Of a DNA stretch of 64,000 bases, positions 5,701 to 12,598 are shown in pieces. The number at the start of each line of letters is the position of its first letter. Within the stretch, counting starts at the first letter, position 1. The notes under the pieces were generated by a model. It did not search any database, had not been told where the DNA came from, and saw nothing but the letters and a program-made list of their open reading frames with translations. The DNA comes from Synechococcus sp. WH 8020. GTDB lineage: Bacteria > Cyanobacteriota > Cyanobacteriia > PCC-6307 > Cyanobiaceae. The position numbers and the translations under genes were made by a program. The stretch lies in contig NZ_CP011941.1 of assembly GCF_001040845.1 (NCBI RefSeq), positions 763,744 to 827,743 on the forward strand, in the 5' to 3' direction.

Positions 5701-6510
5701 GTGCAACTCGTCTCAACCCTCGATGAAAGTGACGATGTGAATCCTCTTGCCTCGATCACCCGCGAGGAAGGCCCTCAAGCCAGGATTTTTGGTTCTGCAC
5801 CAGGTGCGTATGGCGCTGGATTGCAGGCCTTGATTGATTCGGGCCAATGGGACCATCAGGAACAACTTGGCGAGGCTTTTTTGGCTTGGAGTTCGTGGAG
5901 TTACGACGGCGACGTTCAAGCTCATGCCAACCGCACAGGGTTAGAACGAGCTCTTCGTCACGTGCAGGTGGTCCTCCATAACCAAGACAACCGGGAACAC
6001 GATTTACTCGATTCCGATGACTACTACCAGTTTCATGGAGGGATGACCGCAGCGGTGCGTCGCTCCGGAGGGACCAACGTGCGGCCATGGTTTGCAGATC
6101 ACTCTCGCCAGGAACGACTTCGCATTCATTCCCTCAGCCGTGAAATCGACAAGGTGGTGAGAAGCCGTTTATTGAACCCACGCTGGATCGAAGGAATGCA
6201 ACAGCATGGCTACAAAGGAGCGTTCGAAATGGGGGCCAGCCTCGATTATCTGTTTGCTTACGACGCTTCAACTGAAGCGGTTCCTGATTGGTGCTACGGG
6301 GCCATCTGTGATCAGTGGCTGCTTGAAGTCAACACACAAGAATTTTTAAGGCGGTCGAACCCCTGGGTTCTCAGAGATATGGCCGAACGCCTGTTGGAAG
6401 CTGCAAACCGAGGCTTGTGGTCTCAACCTTCCCCCGATCAGCTTGAGCAGATCCGGGGATTGGTTCTTCAGGCCGAGGAGGCCGTCGAGAAAGGAGGCCT
6501 CAGTTGTTGA
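2746..6510 (+). CDS. cobN: Cobaltochelatase large subunit CobN
   Basis: Large subunit of the ATP-dependent chelatase that inserts cobalt into the corrin ring during cobalamin synthesis. At 1254 residues it matches the CobN/ChlH superfamily. Family segments include QLMVHVGKHGSAEWLPGKS (about 545-563), the NDPGEGSQAKRRGHAVI region after it, a central LPTGRNFYSVD segment, and near the C terminus FHGGMTAAVRR and KGAFEMGASLDYLFAYDA. Magnesium chelatase ChlH is the close relative, but the CobN-type start and the LPTGRNFYSVD segment favour cobalt chelation. The start ATG has a close GGAG four to six bases upstream. The last 11 bases overlap the convergent hypothetical gene. ChlI/ChlD-like ATPase partners are not in this window. 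Confidence 0.93.
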   Translation: MHRLSSLPGAESNEVFTVVEQPPAPILFLTSAATDISTLSACLQQPELGHWNEQLRALPLDCLRHPAQIDHYLATTGCTARVLVVRLLGGRGHWSYGLEQCRRWQSSAQNRTLIVLAGTVDQNDELHPIGSVSSALSQQLALLLREGGMSNMTKVLKAIHPFINRCKAPELLNVGIDLQPERMADPAPFDWCDEPGAKVGVLLYRAHARAADTDWCHQLLTALRSRGLSPRALWVSSLRDPVVQEGVQRAFQAQDVQLVVSTTAFASVQFQEAGLGTPLWDGLDLPVLQLLCSGRSKQDWDATTQGLDPIDLSLQVVLPELDGRITTRIGAFREVQDSESSLSTAVKGLVPDSVGLNWLADHARCWVDLRQTEAAEKRVALVLANYPVRNGRLANGVGLDTPASTINILNWLAEAGVELGSESRPDSSEALMAQLLSRRSNDPESFHLQPLTYLPLHHYLRWWSQLPPGARALIERRWGSPEQAVDLEEKGFAVHGLLLGHVAVLIQPSRGYDPDQISDLHSPDLPPPHRYLAQYLWLQEVHATQLMVHVGKHGSAEWLPGKSVGLSEACGPGLALAPIPHVYPFIVNDPGEGSQAKRRGHAVILDHLTPPLGRAGLHGSLLSLEALLDEYVEARQVAAERCDVLEQQIKQLLQHLDWPSFPDASNDSSSAANQDNASWARCLDQVETYLCELKEAQIRTGLHRFGSQPERSVQRELVLAIARSPSGGCQGITQAMAKVVGLECDPWSDEDGARLSDHDRRTLEQLGCDHPRRVSAAVSWLDGQALRLLEQITDEPGEPLCPALQQWLHDNKEPALLRLHDELLPRLLACASSEKKAFLAALSGRRIASGPSGAPTRGRPDVLPTGRNFYSVDLRGLPTEAAWDLGRRSAEQLLDLYRLEEGEDLRHLALSVWGTATMRNGGEDIAQMLALLGVRPLWDGPTRRMVDLEVIPLSLLARPRVDVTLRMSGLFRDAFPQLVGWVNRAVQLVSTLDESDDVNPLASITREEGPQARIFGSAPGAYGAGLQALIDSGQWDHQEQLGEAFLAWSSWSYDGDVQAHANRTGLERALRHVQVVLHNQDNREHDLLDSDDYYQFHGGMTAAVRRSGGTNVRPWFADHSRQERLRIHSLSREIDKVVRSRLLNPRWIEGMQQHGYKGAFEMGASLDYLFAYDASTEAVPDWCYGAICDQWLLEVNTQEFLRRSNPWVLRDMAERLLEAANRGLWSQPSPDQLEQIRGLVLQAEEAVEKGGLSC

Positions 6511-7078
6511 GGTCGCGAACCATGTCCTTAAACGGATCAATCGATCCTGGCTTCGAGGATGGAGTCCGCGTCTGCATTTGAGGAGCAGGCTGCATTTTGG
6601 GTGGTTCGGATTTCAATTCTTCCTTGCGACCTGCAGGGGCTGCATTGGGAGCCATTGGTGCGTTGACACCTGCCGTACGCAACGCATTTCCCTTGAGTTT
6701 TTGATCTAGCTCCTCCTTTGTCATCGCCTCGGCGAAGGTCTTTTTCACAGGGGTGGGAATACCACTTGAAATCACAGAGGGGATCGAAGGTTCTTCGTTA
6801 GGTTTTTCAGAGCCCAATCCCTTGGAACGGGTCCCAACTTTGAGATCCATTGCATCAACTTCGGTCACCAGTTCCTTATTGCCTGGGTTGTCGGCGGATC
6901 CTGGGAAGGTACGGCGGATGGTTTTGGCCTCCCGCATGTAATCCACATTTCCGTAGGAGGAGGACGTGTCTGAATCGAGGTAGAAGGCCTCTGCTTTTGC
7001 TTTGACGTTGTCCTTAGGGAGGCCCTGTTGACCGTCCTTGTTGGAGCGTGACTTCAGCAGCCGATCGAAAAGACCCAT
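6500..7078 (-). CDS. Conserved hypothetical protein, Pro/Ala-rich tail
   Basis: Function not recognised. The product is 192 residues if it starts at MGLFDRLLKS; this ATG has GGATGG about four bases before it. An in-frame ATG three codons upstream (7087) is the alternative. The N-terminal half is polar with a segment containing DYMREAKTIRRTFPG, the middle has KTFAEAMTKEELDQKLKG, and the C-terminal third is low complexity, rich in Pro, Ala, Gln and Lys, ending in DPFKDMVRDLNN. There is no signal peptide or membrane segment. It is the last gene of the minus-strand run hemJ, PHP protein, this gene, and its stop overlaps the end of cobN by 11 bases. The start MGLFDRLL loosely recalls small division or membrane-associated proteins, but nothing decisive supports that. 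Confidence 0.75.
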   Translation of the reverse strand: MGLFDRLLKSRSNKDGQQGLPKDNVKAKAEAFYLDSDTSSSYGNVDYMREAKTIRRTFPGSADNPGNKELVTEVDAMDLKVGTRSKGLGSEKPNEEPSIPSVISSGIPTPVKKTFAEAMTKEELDQKLKGNALRTAGVNAPMAPNAAPAGRKEELKSEPPKMQPAPQMQTRTPSSKPGSIDPFKDMVRDLNN

Positions 7079-7105
7079 TGCAACCATCCAGATCGTTGAG
7101 TGAAT

Positions 7106-7762
7106 TTAGCGGCCTTTAAGGTCAATACCGTGAGTATCAGTGCCGCAAGTACGCAAAAGGCCAAGGTTTTTTAACTGTTGATCGATCGATTCACAGATCA
7201 ATGGCGTGGGTGACCAGCGTTGTTGCATGTCGTAGTCGTACCAGGCTTCACCACCATCGAAACCGAGCTCAGCGGCTGCATCGATTAAGACCGAGAACCC
7301 CAACCTGTACCGACCTGGATGGGCAAGGATTGCGATCCCGCCGGCTTCATGAATCGCTTTACGAACCTCGCCTGCCCTCAGAGGTGCACCAACCGCAGCA
7401 TCGCCGCTGGAGTAAGGCAACAAAGCGGTATGTCCTGGCGTAAAGCCCAGAGCTAGGACGTGAACCAAACAACCGCGCAGGATGCAACTGATTTCCATCC
7501 CACTCCAAAGCGTTGGAGTGTTCACGCCCTGATCGCGAGCACGCTCAAGCCAACGAACCATCGGACCATAGGCGGCGATCGAATGGTGATCGGTGACGGC
7601 AATGTGACTCAGCTTGCGCGCATTGGCTTGTTCAATCAGTGCAACCGGTTCCAGGCTTCCGTCACTGCAGACGGTATGGCAATGAAAATTGAGTAAACCT
7701 GGACAGCTCTCAGGCCCAACCGTGTTCAGAACAGCCCGCAGTGGGTGCTGGTCATGCGTCAC
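7106..7762 (-). CDS. PHP-domain metal-dependent phosphoesterase
   Basis: A PHP-family hydrolase of 218 residues, related to proteins that act on small phosphoesters such as nucleoside 3',5'-bisphosphate. The first metal motif is FHCHTVCSDGS near the N terminus, followed by AVTDHHSIAAY, the segment GMEISC, and AILAHPGRYR; the last metal site is CGTDTHG close to the C terminus. The GTG start at 7762 is chosen because AGGAG lies seven bases upstream; the frame stays open to 7852, but that part overlaps hemJ. The chosen start overlaps the hemJ end by 11 bases, suggesting translational coupling. The substrate cannot be told from sequence. Confidence 0.85.
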   Translation of the reverse strand: MTHDQHPLRAVLNTVGPESCPGLLNFHCHTVCSDGSLEPVALIEQANARKLSHIAVTDHHSIAAYGPMVRWLERARDQGVNTPTLWSGMEISCILRGCLVHVLALGFTPGHTALLPYSSGDAAVGAPLRAGEVRKAIHEAGGIAILAHPGRYRLGFSVLIDAAAELGFDGGEAWYDYDMQQRWSPTPLICESIDQQLKNLGLLRTCGTDTHGIDLKGR

Positions 7763-8345
7763 TGGCTGACTCCTGCGCGAGCGCTGCTTCGCGGAGACGT
7801 CGCCAGCGGGCATAAAACTGAATGGTGCCGGCCATAAACACCACGAGTCCAACGGTTAACCAGGTTGCTGCTCCTGTTGGAAATTGGGTTTTGAAGACCA
7901 CCAGCATCACCACGAGAACAAGCAACAGGGTTGGAAGTTCGTTGAGAGCACGGAGTTGCCTGCCGCTCCACTGGCAAACCCCAGCTTGCAGTTGTCCCAT
8001 CAGTCGATAACAGAACACGTGATAGGCCAGCAACAGAGCCACAAAGCCGAGCTTTGCGTGCATCCAGCCTTGCTGCAGCCAGGATGGTTGTGTGATCAAT
8101 AGACCTGCCGCCATTGTCACGGTGAGGATCAGGCCAGGTGTGGTGATGATGTTGGCCAGCCGCCTTTCCATCACTGCGTACTGCGCTTTGAAGGCTTCGC
8201 GAACAGGCGACTCCTCCTCGTCCGCTTCAACGTGATAGATGAACAGTCGAACGAGATAAAAGAGACCCGCGAACCAGACCACCACGCCAACGATGTGAAG
8301 GGTCTTGAACCACAGGTAAGCCTCAGGAGGAAGCGTCAGTGTCAT
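7752..8345 (-). CDS. hemJ: HemJ-type protoporphyrinogen IX oxidase
   Basis: Integral membrane protein of 197 residues in the HemJ family (formerly UPF0093), which oxidises protoporphyrinogen IX to protoporphyrin IX for haem and chlorophyll synthesis in most cyanobacteria. About four or five membrane segments are visible. The first holds the conserved histidine H17 in LHIVGVVVWFAGLFYLVRLF; further family segments are RRLANIITTPG, the HAKLGFV motif, and RALNELPTLLLV. The C-terminal tail is charged. It is the first gene of a three-gene minus-strand run with the PHP protein and the hypothetical protein next to cobN. Confidence 0.9.
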   Translation of the reverse strand: MTLTLPPEAYLWFKTLHIVGVVVWFAGLFYLVRLFIYHVEADEEESPVREAFKAQYAVMERRLANIITTPGLILTVTMAAGLLITQPSWLQQGWMHAKLGFVALLLAYHVFCYRLMGQLQAGVCQWSGRQLRALNELPTLLLVLVVMLVVFKTQFPTGAATWLTVGLVVFMAGTIQFYARWRRLREAALAQESASDA

Positions 8346-8380
8346 GACCCCATCAATCTCTCCTCAACAATAGAAAGCCG

Positions 8381-9787
8381 CTAGCTGAGCGAGTCAAGAA
8401 ACTGTTGCGCCTTGGAGTAATGCGTTTCCATTACCTCGGCTGCCATGCGATCGAGATTTCGAGTCATCATCGCCAATCTTGGTTGTGAACGAAAAAAGTC
8501 TCCATGACGATGAATAAAACTCCAGAACAAGCCATCCCATATCTCACACCACTCTCCGGGTTTGTAGTCAGACATTTTGCGAACGTAATTGGAGCCTGAT
8601 ATATAAGGTTTGCTCGTAAAGATTCCACCGTCTGCAAACTGACTCATCCCATAAACATTAGGAACCATGACCCAATCGTAAGCATCCACGAACAATTCCA
8701 TAAACCAAGTATAGATACGATTGGGATGGAAACCACAAAGAAGCATCGGGTTTCCCAGCAGCATCAGGCGCTCAATGTGATGACAATATCCAGTGTTCAA
8801 AGCACGTTTGATTGCATCATCAATCGGTGGAATTCCCGTGGTCCCTTGGTAAAATGCGTCTGGGATGGGGCGATCTTCAAAGTTCCAAAAATTGCTATTG
8901 CGCATCGTTACTCCATGGCGCAGATACATCGCAGCCATGAATTCACGCCAACCAATGATTTGCCTTAGAAAACCCTCCAGAGAATTCAGTGGGATCTCAC
9001 TAGATTCTGCAACGTCGAGCGTTTGGGTGAGAATCTGCTGGGGAGTAAGAAGCCCGAGGTTGAGCATCGGCGTCAAGACGCTATGCCACATCACACGGTG
9101 TTTGGAGCTGATGGCATCTTCATAGGTGCCGAAACCAGCCAGTCTTTGTTCCAAAAAGGTGTCAAGCCATTGTTTTGCTGATCGGTGATCAATAGGGAAA
9201 TCAATTGATGGTTCTTCAGGAACCGTGATTCCTTTGGGAAGTTTTTTACGGTTATCGGCGTCATAACTCCAGCGGCCACCCACAGGAGCTCCCTGATCAT
9301 CGATCAAAACTCCTAAGCGCTTGCGCTGCATTTGATAGAAATTGGCCATCATTGGTTTGCGTCGGCCGCTGAAATATTTATCCATCACTTCGGTTGGTGT
9401 CAGCAACATCGGAGTGGGTAGAAGATTGAGAATGCAATGGCGCCGTTCCAATGTCTTTTTGACTCTTTTATTCAACAAATCATCGATTGGATCGACCATG
9501 TAAAATGTTTGATATCCAGAATCAATTAGTTGGTTGAGAAGATCTGATGTTTGCTGATTCTGATTGGGTGTGAGTATGCAAACGCTAAAACCTTTGGACG
9601 CAAGATCCTTTTGGTAGGCAAGCATCGTTTGTTGATGCAACTTGAGCTTGCGTGGGTGGATGGTGAGCGGCCATTGAGGATCACCTCCGAGGATCAAGGC
9701 ATCTGCAATCAAGGCAATGCTGCGGTTGTCACAAATACCTGGATGGTGTTCGAAAAGCTGATGGGGAAAAACAAGTGTGATTTCCAT
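8381..9787 (-). CDS. Photolyase/cryptochrome-related protein of the FeS-BCP group, iron-sulfur ligands apparently lost
   Basis: A 468-residue flavoprotein related to deoxyribodipyrimidine photolyases of the bacterial (6-4)/cryptochrome group (PhrB/CryB-like). Recognisable segments are the start LVFPHQLFEHHP, the middle EGFLRQIIGWREFM, YCHHIERLMLLGNP, and NVYGMSQFADGG followed by TSKPYISGSNYVRKMSDY, then QPRLAMMTRNLDRM. Characterised members bind a [4Fe-4S] cluster with four cysteines. Here the segment after KMSDY runs straight to KPGEWCEIWDG, without the CxxC pair expected there, and only C414 remains at the last ligand position. It therefore probably lacks the cluster. FAD binding and DNA repair or light sensing are inferred from the family. 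Confidence 0.88.
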   Translation of the reverse strand: MEITLVFPHQLFEHHPGICDNRSIALIADALILGGDPQWPLTIHPRKLKLHQQTMLAYQKDLASKGFSVCILTPNQNQQTSDLLNQLIDSGYQTFYMVDPIDDLLNKRVKKTLERRHCILNLLPTPMLLTPTEVMDKYFSGRRKPMMANFYQMQRKRLGVLIDDQGAPVGGRWSYDADNRKKLPKGITVPEEPSIDFPIDHRSAKQWLDTFLEQRLAGFGTYEDAISSKHRVMWHSVLTPMLNLGLLTPQQILTQTLDVAESSEIPLNSLEGFLRQIIGWREFMAAMYLRHGVTMRNSNFWNFEDRPIPDAFYQGTTGIPPIDDAIKRALNTGYCHHIERLMLLGNPMLLCGFHPNRIYTWFMELFVDAYDWVMVPNVYGMSQFADGGIFTSKPYISGSNYVRKMSDYKPGEWCEIWDGLFWSFIHRHGDFFRSQPRLAMMTRNLDRMAAEVMETHYSKAQQFLDSLS

Positions 9788-9793
9788 AACGTC

Positions 9794-10108
9794 TTATCCG
9801 GTTTCTCCCGCTAGTCGGCAGGCACGCCGTCCCAGCGCTGTGGCTGGGATGCGATCCACCAGCCCTCCTCGTGGGCTGAGCTGCTGGTTTCGGCAGTCCA
9901 TCACGACACGCTCCCGATGCCCTTGTTGATCTTCCAAGCGCATCCGCAGTTGCCAGTGATTTTTGGCGCTGCGGGTGATCTCATCGGCGCACACCACACC
10001 TGTGCATAGGCCCGGTGCCGCCAAGGCTCGATCAGGATTTATCAGACAGATGGAGAATGCGATCAACACAGTGCAGAACAGGTTCGTGGCGTGAAAGCAG
10101 CGTTTCAT
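9794..10108 (-). CDS. Small secreted hypothetical protein with four mature cysteines
   Basis: Function not recognised. The 104-residue product opens with a signal peptide: MKRCF, a hydrophobic stretch, then DRALAAPG, with likely cleavage after ALA near residue 31. The mature part has four cysteines, two in [11 protein letters not shown], one in VVMDCRNQQ and one in GRRACRLAG, which could make two disulfides in the periplasm or thylakoid lumen. The ATG overlaps the uvrC stop by four bases (ATGA), so it is probably translated by coupling to uvrC, although a repair nuclease and an exported protein have no obvious common job. Confidence 0.7.
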
Positions 10109-12060
10109 TCCGTGTCCTCACCTGCCATCCCCACGTTGTCCTCATCCAGTTCCTGCGGATGAAAATAGGTGCGGATCTGTTTCGCCAGAGAGAGTCCAAC
10201 CCCTGGGGCTTGATGAATTTGCTCCACGCTCGCCAGCTGAATGGCGTCAATCGACTGAAAGTGAGCCAATAGATCACGCACCCGTTTCGGCCCTAGCCCA
10301 GGAATGTCAGATAGTCGTGAGCGCTTCATCCGCTGGCCACGCTGCTGTCGATGGAAGGTCACTGCGAAGCGATGCGCCTCGTCGCGCAAACGTCGCAACA
10401 ACGTCACTCCGAGTTGATCCGGTTCGCTCTCGAGGGGCTGCTTTGCTTCTGGGAGGAAAATCTCTTCGCGTTGTTTGGCCAAGGAACAAACCACTAGGTC
10501 CTCATGCAAATCCAACTCGCGTAAGGCCTCCATCACTGCGGACAACTGCCCCTTACCACCATCAATCATCACGACATCGGGCCAATCGTGGAGTCCATTC
10601 ATGTTCAGGCTGCTATTGGATTGACGACGGACCTCATCCAGGTCAGCACCTTCAGCTTTAACGCGGGCCCATTTTCGAAAGCGCCTGCGCATGATTTCTG
10701 CCATGGCCATGAAGTCATCGCTGTGGCCGGCCTGAATACTGCTGCTTTGGATTTTGTATCGGCGGTAATGCTGCTTGGCAGGAAGTCCGTCAATAAAGAC
10801 CACCTGAGAGGCCACAGCATCACTGCCCTGAATATGACTGATGTCATAACCCTCAATTCGTCTTGGAGGTGTGGCTAACTCAAGAAGTTGAGCGAGATCC
10901 TCATTCGCTAAGGCTTGCTGCTCCTGACTCTGACGAGCCCTGCCCAGTTCAAATTCAGCGTTACGCATCACCAAATCAATCAGGTCTGCTTTTTGGCGTC
11001 GTTGGGGATGCAACACCTGAACTTTGCGCTCTCTTTGCTCGCTCAGCCATTCAGTAATCAAGCTCTGTTGAGGTAGCTCATGCTGCACCAAAACTTCTGG
11101 AGGAATCTCAACAGCATCAACCTGGCTGTAGTGCTCTTCAATGACGCGCTGAAGAATGATTCCTGCCTCTAGATTTGTTGCATCTGCGGCGAAACCAAGT
11201 CTCCCCACAAGTTTTCCAGCACGCATCTGGAACAACTGAATGGCTGCAAAATGATCGTCTTGGGCAACAGCCAGAACATCTCTACTCACTGATGCATTAG
11301 GCAAGCTCATTTTTTGGTCAGCTGTTAATTGATCAATACCCTGAAGTTGATCGCGTATTCGTGCTGCAGATTCAAAATCAAGCCTCTCGGCGTAACGTTC
11401 CATTTGCTGGTTCAGGAGTTTCCTGAGTTCATCACTTCGACCCTGAAACACCATCGCAACTTTGCGTAATATTTGGTGATAATCCTCAGAGCTCACCTTC
11501 TCTTGACAAACTCCTGGACAACGGCCAATCGAATAATTAAGGCAGGTTCGATTGGGATAAAGTGGTCGTGGACGTTGGCGTAGTGGAAAAACACGTTTTA
11601 CAAGAAACAGGGTCCTTCTCAGTAAGCCCACATCCACATAAGGTCCATAAAACCGATCAAGTGGGCTTCTAAACCTTCGACGTCTAGTAATGAAAATTCG
11701 GGGGTAGGCTTCGCTCCAGGTAATGCAGAGATAGGGATATTTTTTGTCGTCTTTCAGCAACACATTAAAATGTGGTTGCTGGTTTTTGATCAGATTCGAT
11801 TCCAGAGCGAGCGCTTCAGCTTCGCTATCCGTCACGATGAATTCGATTTCACAGATTTGCCGCACCATCAAGCGGATGCGTGGACTCAGGTCATGGCTGC
11901 TTCGAAAGTAGCTTCGAACCCTGCTGCGCAAGGTTTTTGATTTTCCGACGTAGAGCAACCGGTCGTCGGCATCGCGCATGAGATAACAGCCCGGCTCTGG
12001 GGGGATCTCTTTCAGGCGCTGTTCCAGGCGCTCCGGTTGCTCTAGCAAAGGACGCTGCAT
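10105..12060 (-). CDS. uvrC: Excinuclease ABC subunit C
   Basis: Nuclease subunit of nucleotide excision repair; it cuts the damaged strand on both sides of the lesion within the UvrB-DNA complex. The 651 residues show the expected order: a GIY-YIG domain ([19 protein letters not shown], then SRVRSYF) in the first 100 residues, a Cys-rich stretch with [10 protein letters not shown], a UVR motif around 210-245 ([15 protein letters not shown]), the RNase H-like catalytic domain with [15 protein letters not shown] and [12 protein letters not shown], and paired helix-hairpin-helix motifs at the end ([29 protein letters not shown]). It is divergent from coaD across 55 bases and overlaps the next gene by four. 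Confidence 0.97.
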
Positions 12061-12115
12061 CTCTTGAATCTAGAGAACCTGCGCTGCATAGGATCCGATC
12101 AGTCCTTCATGGCTG

Positions 12116-12598
12116 ATGCGCGCTCTCTACCCGGGCAGTTTTGATCCACTCACCCTTGGTCATCTCGATTTAATCGAGCGTGGCTGTTCCTTATTCGGAG
12201 AAGTCGTTGTGGCTGTTCTCCAGAACCCAGGCAAGTCTCCCGCTTTTAGTCTTGATCAACGGTTGGAGCAAATCACTCAGGCAACCTCCCATCTGCAAGG
12301 GGTCACGGTGACCAGCTTCAACGGCCTAACCGTGAACTGCGCTCGCGAACACCATGCCCAGTTGATCCTGCGTGGATTACGAGCGATGAGTGATTTTGAA
12401 TACGAACTCCAAATTGCCCATACCAACCGATCTTTGGATTCAGAATTTGAAACGATTTTTCTCAGCACTGCAGCCCACTACAGCTTTTTGAGCAGTTCGG
12501 TTGTGAAAGAAGTGGCTCGATTTGGTGGCCGTGTGGATCACATGGTTCCGGCGGTGGTGGCGGAAGACCTCAAGAGGTTCTTTAATTCGGCTTTATAA
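12116..12598 (+). CDS. coaD: Phosphopantetheine adenylyltransferase
   Basis: Makes dephospho-CoA from 4'-phosphopantetheine and ATP in coenzyme A synthesis. The 160-residue length is typical. It shows the nucleotidyltransferase motif [16 protein letters not shown] at the N terminus with the HxGH-like TLGH, the central [17 protein letters not shown], and the C-terminal [12 protein letters not shown] motif (ISSS-type). The start [11 protein letters not shown] is the family start. The coiled-coil gene starts 10 bases after its stop, so the two are likely cotranscribed. Confidence 0.96.

Follow-up and report, generated by a model that had tools for sequence, protein, structure and literature searches.

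A (6-4)-type photolyase gene without iron-sulfur ligands in the uvrC-hemJ slot of Synechococcus sp. WH 8020

Introduction

In a 64,000-nucleotide stretch of the genome of Synechococcus sp. WH 8020 (NZ_CP011941.1, positions 763,744 to 827,743; hereafter the window), a sequence-only reading had assigned one frame to the iron-sulfur group of photolyases and cryptochromes, while noting that the ligands of the cluster seemed to be missing. The locus raises the question of what kind of enzyme this is, how it would hold together without the cluster, and whether the ligands were lost within the picocyanobacteria. For asking what the [4Fe-4S] cluster contributes to (6-4) photolyases, be it stability, DNA binding or charge transfer, cluster-free and cluster-type enzymes occupying one chromosomal slot would be natural matched pairs.

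The gene and its assignment

The features discussed below are collected in Table 1. We searched the whole genome, a single contig of 2.66 Mb, and found the 468-aa coding sequence in one copy. All of the motifs quoted in the sequence-only reading (GMSQFADGG, SNYVRKMSDY, NLDRM, IPPI and KPGEWCEIWDG) are present in its translation. Two Pfam domains exceed their cut-offs, DPRP (6e-39, 134.6 bits) and FAD_binding_7 (3.5e-7, 30.3 bits), giving the protein the PhrB-like N domain and FAD domain that characterize subgroup M, a group of prokaryotic 6-4 photolyases named in PMC9178010. Each of the eight matches among the sequences of solved structures is a prokaryotic (6-4) photolyase or CryB. The protein falls below the cut-offs of the curated class I CPD photolyase models (31.6 bits against 506 for PRK10674 and 23.2 bits against 884.6 for the 8-HDF type).

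Table 1. Features of the phr2 locus; positions refer to the window
Feature	Position	Strand	Remark
phr2-type gene, cluster-free prokaryotic (6-4)-type photolyase, 468 aa	8381..9787	-	ATG start
uvrC	10105..12060	-	upstream of phr2, same direction
orf104	9794..10108	-	small ORF between uvrC and phr2; conserved in slot
hemJ (protoporphyrinogen oxidase)	7752..8345	-	downstream flank of slot
Ala28 at antenna-site Glu (E33 of PhrB)	9704..9706	-	A in 9/9 clade rows
D176, predicted Mg site (D179 of PhrB; D178 of Caulobacter enzyme)	9260..9262	-	137/137; PMC12082625
Residues 192-196, remaining interdomain linker, 5 residues	9200..9214	-	alignment
D224, predicted Mg site (D254 of PhrB; D253 of Caulobacter enzyme)	9116..9118	-	137/137; PMC12082625
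Pro321, first-ligand position (C350 in PhrB)	8825..8827	-	P in 136/137 cluster-free, C in 20/20 cluster-type rows
H336-H337, catalytic His pair (H365/H366 of PhrB)	8777..8782	-	H337 137/137, H336 136/137
Y395 and Y401, lesion-side Tyr (Y424, Y430 of PhrB)	8585..8605	-	both 137/137
Y408-D418, shortened loop without CxxC pair and fourth ligand	8534..8566	-	W413, W417, D418 fixed or nearly fixed in branch

Three other places in the WH 8020 genome belong to the photolyase family, with frames of 512, 552 and 306 aa. The last of these (L155) is a phr4-like FAD part with a four-cysteine pattern, and adjoining it is a 161-aa frame that, judged by eye, resembles the second half. The photolyase-family frames of this genome fit the gene set described for marine Synechococcus in PMC9426592.

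The AF2 model of the WH 8020 protein, built from 47 sequences, has a pLDDT of 91.8 and a pTM of 0.90, and that of a Prochlorococcus homologue reaches 92.9 and 0.93; the weakest block of the WH 8020 model is residues 381-390, with a pLDDT of 61. Superposed with VIA-align, the WH 8020 model matches the (6-4) photolyase of S. elongatus (8ijy) over the span 1-467 with a Z score of 41.8 and an rmsd of 2.1 over 455 residues. The scores for 4dja and CryB are 41.0 and 40.6, against 28.6 for the best of any other photolyase class, and each of the ten structures nearest to the model is a (6-4) enzyme or CryB. The predicted model shows the overall fold and domain arrangement of the FeS-BCP group.

The ligand positions

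We cut out and aligned the proteins from 168 loci. Three loci (L153-L155) gave no match, leaving 166 rows with WH 8020 itself, and 157 were kept after we dropped three copies of the WH 8020 gene (L001, L156, L157), two broken genes (L049, L050), two partial ones (L068, L124), one gene on a viral contig (L152) and one identical row. The 157 rows comprise 137 cluster-free proteins, many of them near-identical Prochlorococcus sequences, and 20 of the cluster type, 10 cyanobacterial and 10 from plasmid copies. The sample from named genomes is the best 80 of at least 581 confirmed places, picked by likeness to the query, and counts based on it are not estimates of prevalence.

Our reference for the ligand positions was PhrB from Agrobacterium pusense (L158), whose ligands we take to be Cys350, Cys438, Cys441 and Cys454. 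At these positions the WH 8020 protein has P321, a gap, a gap and E415. Every row with a CxxC pair, 20 out of 20, has all four cysteines. In the cluster-free branch the first position is occupied by Pro except for a single Ala, the CxxC pair is a gap in 137 of 137 rows, and the fourth position holds Glu in 59 rows, Asp in 27, other residues in the rest and Cys in none. The ten-residue deletion after Y408 is identical in all 137 rows, and the absence of the ligands is therefore not a matter of chance or of a local error. On this alignment, the sequence-only reading was right that no CxxC follows MSDY and that IPPI stands where the upstream ligand would be, and the comparison with PhrB and homologues that it had proposed yields no four-cysteine arrangement. 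Its statement that only C414 remains of the ligands does not hold: residues G411-W422, twelve in number, align without a gap in all 20 cluster-type and 137 branch rows, which places C414 opposite the residue just ahead of the fourth ligand (Ala for 19 of the 20 cluster-type rows), one residue away from the true position. Membership in a cluster-free branch of (6-4)-type photolyases, with all four ligands gone, is confirmed at the level of the aligned residues.

The two broken genes set aside above (L049 and L050, from genomes G100 and G113 of genus g69) consist of a photolyase gene in pieces, one with an internal stop; the first piece retains the first ligand cysteine. Among the plasmid matches, at L167 1837-2073 on an Acinetobacter plasmid, the cluster-type photolyase is followed by DUF2256 and TIGR03643 genes, and DUF2256 is also listed under the match on a Novosphingobium plasmid.

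Repair residues and lesion specificity

The roles of the PhrB-family residues and of the Mg site are taken from PMC4619345 and PMC12082625. The former describes H366 as essential in PhrB, the H366N mutant being without repair. The catalytic His pair, both lesion-side tyrosines and both Asp of the predicted Mg site are kept in the branch (Table 1), as are L341, M381 and W361 (L370, M410 and W390 of PhrB), each in 137 of 137 rows. Two residues differ: W342 of PhrB corresponds to Y313 and E403 to M374. Subgroup M is described in PMC9178010 as being without an intact electron chain and as having mostly Met at the E403 position, and Y313 and M374 of the WH 8020 protein are in line with that description. 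The conserved repair residues and the two Mg-site Asp favour (6-4) repair over a CPD role.

A CPD role has nonetheless been proposed for Phr2 of marine Synechococcus. The authors of PMC9426592 take the cluster-free form as a likely CPD photolyase, arguing from the missing Fe-S residues and from the UV-B phenotype: disruption of phr2 in strain RS9916 lowers UV-B survival about 1000-fold, and UV-B yields a smaller share of (6-4) lesions than UV-C. The argument from the missing cluster appears weak, because the His that PhrB needs for repair is conserved in the branch, and the cluster presumably does not set lesion specificity in any case. Since that His and both lesion tyrosines are invariant (137 of 137 rows) and the ten nearest structural neighbours are without exception (6-4) enzymes or CryB, we consider the CPD explanation unlikely.

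The protein might also be mainly a light receptor, a cryptochrome like CryB of Rhodobacter, whose fold it shares. The fixed repair residues and the position of the gene behind uvrC speak against this, as does the report in PMC9426592 that phr2 of RS9916 raises survival in Escherichia coli in a light-dependent manner, and we regard such a role as very improbable.

Distribution and phylogeny

Within the genus of WH 8020, a match to the gene was found in 29 of 30 other genomes, and the one without a match is 70% complete. DPRP matches occur in 159 of the 251 genomes of the family, 155 of these having exactly one and 4 having two; therefore the two types of enzyme seldom coexist.

We computed a tree with the ligand columns left out. 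Cluster-free and cluster-type proteins are separated with a support of 100. The rows of the cluster-free branch come from Bacteroidota, Verrucomicrobiota, Planctomycetota, Pseudomonadota, Myxococcota, Spirochaetota, Balneolota, a Lokiarchaeota MAG and cyanobacteria; many of them are MAGs, whose taxon labels may be wrong. For example, one MAG contig labelled Microbacteriaceae (L094) groups with Verrucomicrobiota, and another labelled Rhodobacteraceae (L077) has Prochlorococcus motifs; both may be mis-binned, the second judged by its motifs only. The spread of the branch over Bacteroidota, Verrucomicrobiota, Planctomycetota, Pseudomonadota and other phyla contradicts the earlier suggestion of a picocyanobacterial lineage trait.

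The genes of marine Synechococcus and Prochlorococcus nest inside Verrucomicrobiota and group together with an SH-aLRT support of 87. The WH 8020 protein is 57% identical to a Verrucomicrobiota homologue (L072) and 31% identical to a picocyanobacterial protein of the cluster type (L044). The AU test rejects a joint clade of marine Synechococcus and the picocyanobacterial cluster type (p-AU 2.6e-5) and also a grouping that unites every sampled ligand-free gene of cyanobacteria in one clade (p-AU 1.2e-7), with p values that are somewhat generous because the groups were named after a first tree had been seen. An outgroup made of the genome's own photolyases has terminal branches of 8-10 changes per column, which is too distant to polarise cluster loss versus gain.

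The WH 8020 protein had no match in the viral contigs or phages searched. A search among the viral contigs with the family alignment gave one match (L152, 2863-4413, + strand), a ligand-free photolyase of 36% identity on an 83-kb viral contig. Its neighbours, named by eye, include a DHFR-thymidylate synthase-like gene and others resembling genes of large DNA viruses.

The uvrC-hemJ slot

From 7106 to 12060 on the minus strand, uvrC, orf104, phr2, hemJ and a PHP gene share one orientation, and no overlap or gap between neighbours exceeds 35 bases. This arrangement suggests one transcription unit that would combine photorepair with excision repair and tetrapyrrole synthesis. Scanning 6400-12300 for a consensus promoter gave no site on the minus strand, and no Pfam family was found for orf104.

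Of 39 marine relatives (L002-L030, L051-L060), 38 have the ligand-free gene flanked by uvrC and hemJ. In the 39th (L017, genome G001) the photolyase is flanked by uvrC, orf104 and the PHP gene, and hemJ is missing. At the hemJ site of this genome, on the opposite strand, lies a gene for a HemG-type menaquinone-dependent protoporphyrinogen IX dehydrogenase (2350-2886 of L017, minus strand; 180 bits against a cut-off of 142), and no match to hemJ was found in this near-complete marine genome at E <= 0.001. Isofunctional enzymes have apparently been swapped at one site.

The four-cysteine type occupies the same slot in some other members of the family. In 9 of 12 picocyanobacteria with this type, uvrC and hemJ flank the photolyase within the stretch covered, one of them with about 3.2 kb in between; two show one flank, and G060 has neither within that stretch, uvrC and hemJ lying on the two sides of its photolyase gene about 22 kb apart. 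In seven family genomes that carry the ligand-free gene elsewhere, the gap between uvrC and hemJ is about 90-490 bases, too short for this gene; five of these (G035, G064, G363, G389, G047) were checked at the ligand positions and two (G398, G243) were assigned by identity only. In G048, uvrC is broken over contigs, and about 430 bases separate its end from hemJ.

The presence of both types in one slot might be explained by loss in place, with a local cluster-type gene decaying and then being re-stabilised. Against this stand the 31% identity to L044 compared with 57% to L072, the rejection of the joint clade and the seven genomes in which the cluster-free gene sits elsewhere and the slot is too short. 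We judge it highly improbable. Because of the synteny of the slot together with the tree, replacement rather than decay is indicated, and the likeliest course is that a horizontally acquired gene displaced the cluster type, more than once. That iron scarcity drove the replacement is a guess, and an iron-saving motive is weakened because the WH 8020 genome keeps the phr4-like four-cysteine frame.

The former cluster site

Some other means of stabilisation, as the sequence-only reading had argued, is likely to be needed: ligand mutants of PhrB were insoluble or not expressed (PMC4619345). The shortened loop is predicted with high confidence, with a mean pLDDT of 97 over residues 411-420 of the AF2 model. 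Between positions 300 and 450, 12 residues reach at least 95% conservation within the branch and differ from the cluster type. Those at the former ligand sites are P321 (136/137), W413 (137/137), W417 (136/137) and D418 (136/137), and these four may pack the space of the cluster. PMC4619345 also mentions 7% of family members without Tyr460 and also without the Cys; in our alignment the Tyr460 position is Tyr in 27 of 137 ligand-free proteins.

That a cluster is still bound through other cysteines or a partner we find barely credible: C335 (120/137) and C351 (135/137), the only other helical-domain cysteines of WH 8020 that are common in the branch, and C414 (100/137) might be called upon, as might the four or five cysteines aligned to residues 310-430 in 13 of 137 rows, but the extra ones of these 13 stand at differing places, C414 is often Gln (26/137), a further 5 rows have a single Cys in that range, and C335 and C351 lie at opposite ends of a helix (337-350) in the AF2 model. 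An alternative metal site made of C335, C351 and C414 was rejected on the pattern of cysteine conservation.

Linker and antenna site

The WH 8020 protein and those of 8 genus relatives have an interdomain linker of 5 residues. By comparison, it measures 32-38 residues in 126 of the 128 other ligand-free rows, 15 and 18 in the remaining two, and 30-40 in the 20 cluster-type rows. The nine genomes form one clade in the tree (support 99), which has lost about 27 linker residues. The antenna-site Glu, replaced by Ala throughout this clade, is kept in 125 of the 128 other cluster-free rows and in 20 of 20 cluster-type rows; further changes of the clade concern residue 33 (9/9) and residue 52 (8/9). 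Mean identity between WH 8020 and 19 long-linker relatives (18 of the genus and one of the family) is 50% in the antenna domain and 77% in the helical domain.

Despite these changes, dN/dS in eight genomes of the short-linker clade (the set does not include L009) is about 0.06 for the helical domain and 0.137 for the antenna domain. Both domains are under purifying selection, and therefore the antenna domain probably still does something. Relaxed selection on the antenna domain was not seen in these eight genomes, the corresponding value for nine long-linker relatives being 0.126. The fold of the short-linker clade is predicted to be kept. As for the antenna itself, the domain may hold DMRL, another flavin or nothing, and 8-HDF seems unlikely, because no cofH match above the cut-off turned up in 31 genomes of the genus (there is one weak match). 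The clade offers a natural case for asking if the enzyme can do without linker and antenna.

Proposed mechanism and history

We think it highly probable that the product of the WH 8020 gene is a cluster-free (6-4)-type photolyase that works as outlined here, and that the gene was acquired horizontally into the uvrC-hemJ slot. We infer that the protein would bind FAD together with a (6-4) lesion of duplex DNA; once excited by light, the reduced FAD would pass an electron to the lesion, to which H337 would give a proton, while Y395 and Y401 would hold the lesion and Mg2+ at D176 and D224 would stabilise the complex. The subdomain that surrounds the [4Fe-4S] cluster in other enzymes may be closed by protein packing, through the loop shortened by ten residues, Pro321, the tryptophan pair W413 and W417, and D418. 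Marine Synechococcus would have gained the gene horizontally, and it would have taken the slot formerly held by a cluster-type enzyme; in the WH 8020 clade the linker would then have shrunk to five residues and the antenna pocket been altered. A wider version of this history can be offered only tentatively: in open-ocean picocyanobacteria a verrucomicrobial-type cluster-free (6-4) photolyase may have taken the place of the native [4Fe-4S] enzyme (for marine Synechococcus, within exactly the same operon slot), after which the WH 8020 clade shed its linker and altered its antenna pocket, using a different antenna or none.

Comparison with known systems

The cluster-free trait is already published, as PromaPL, as subgroup M and as Phr2 of marine Synechococcus. 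The cluster-free Prochlorococcus relative mentioned in the sequence-only reading is indeed PromaPL, named in both PMC9178010 and PMC9426592. What we add is the replacement in the uvrC-hemJ slot and the short-linker form, neither of which was found in the papers searched. Nothing on cluster loss, transfer or linker loss was found in PMC9426592, whose text does not use the words horizontal, lateral, linker or syntenic, in PMC9498864 or in the other literature searched, which lay mostly outside subscription papers.

PromaPL and subgroup M share with the WH 8020 protein the absence of cluster ligands, the architecture and the clade, and the Prochlorococcus marinus homologue in our sample (L083) is 50% identical to it; the WH 8020 clade differs in its linker, shorter by about 27 residues, and in its lack of the antenna-site Glu. 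Phr2 of RS9916, to which the WH 8020 gene is presumably orthologous, is likewise cluster-free, has the PhrB-like N domain and lies downstream of uvrC, and all Synechococcus of subcluster 5.1 appear to have such a cluster-free Phr2 (PMC9426592); the difference is in its interpretation there as a likely CPD enzyme. With PhrB (4dja), CryB (3zxs), SePhrB (8ijy) and Cc(6-4)PL (9hnk), the WH 8020 protein has in common the fold (Z 40-42), the repair residues and the Mg-site Asp. It differs from all four in having no [4Fe-4S] ligands and a loop ten residues shorter, and from PhrB in particular by the substitutions W342 to Y313, E403 to M374 and E33 to A28.
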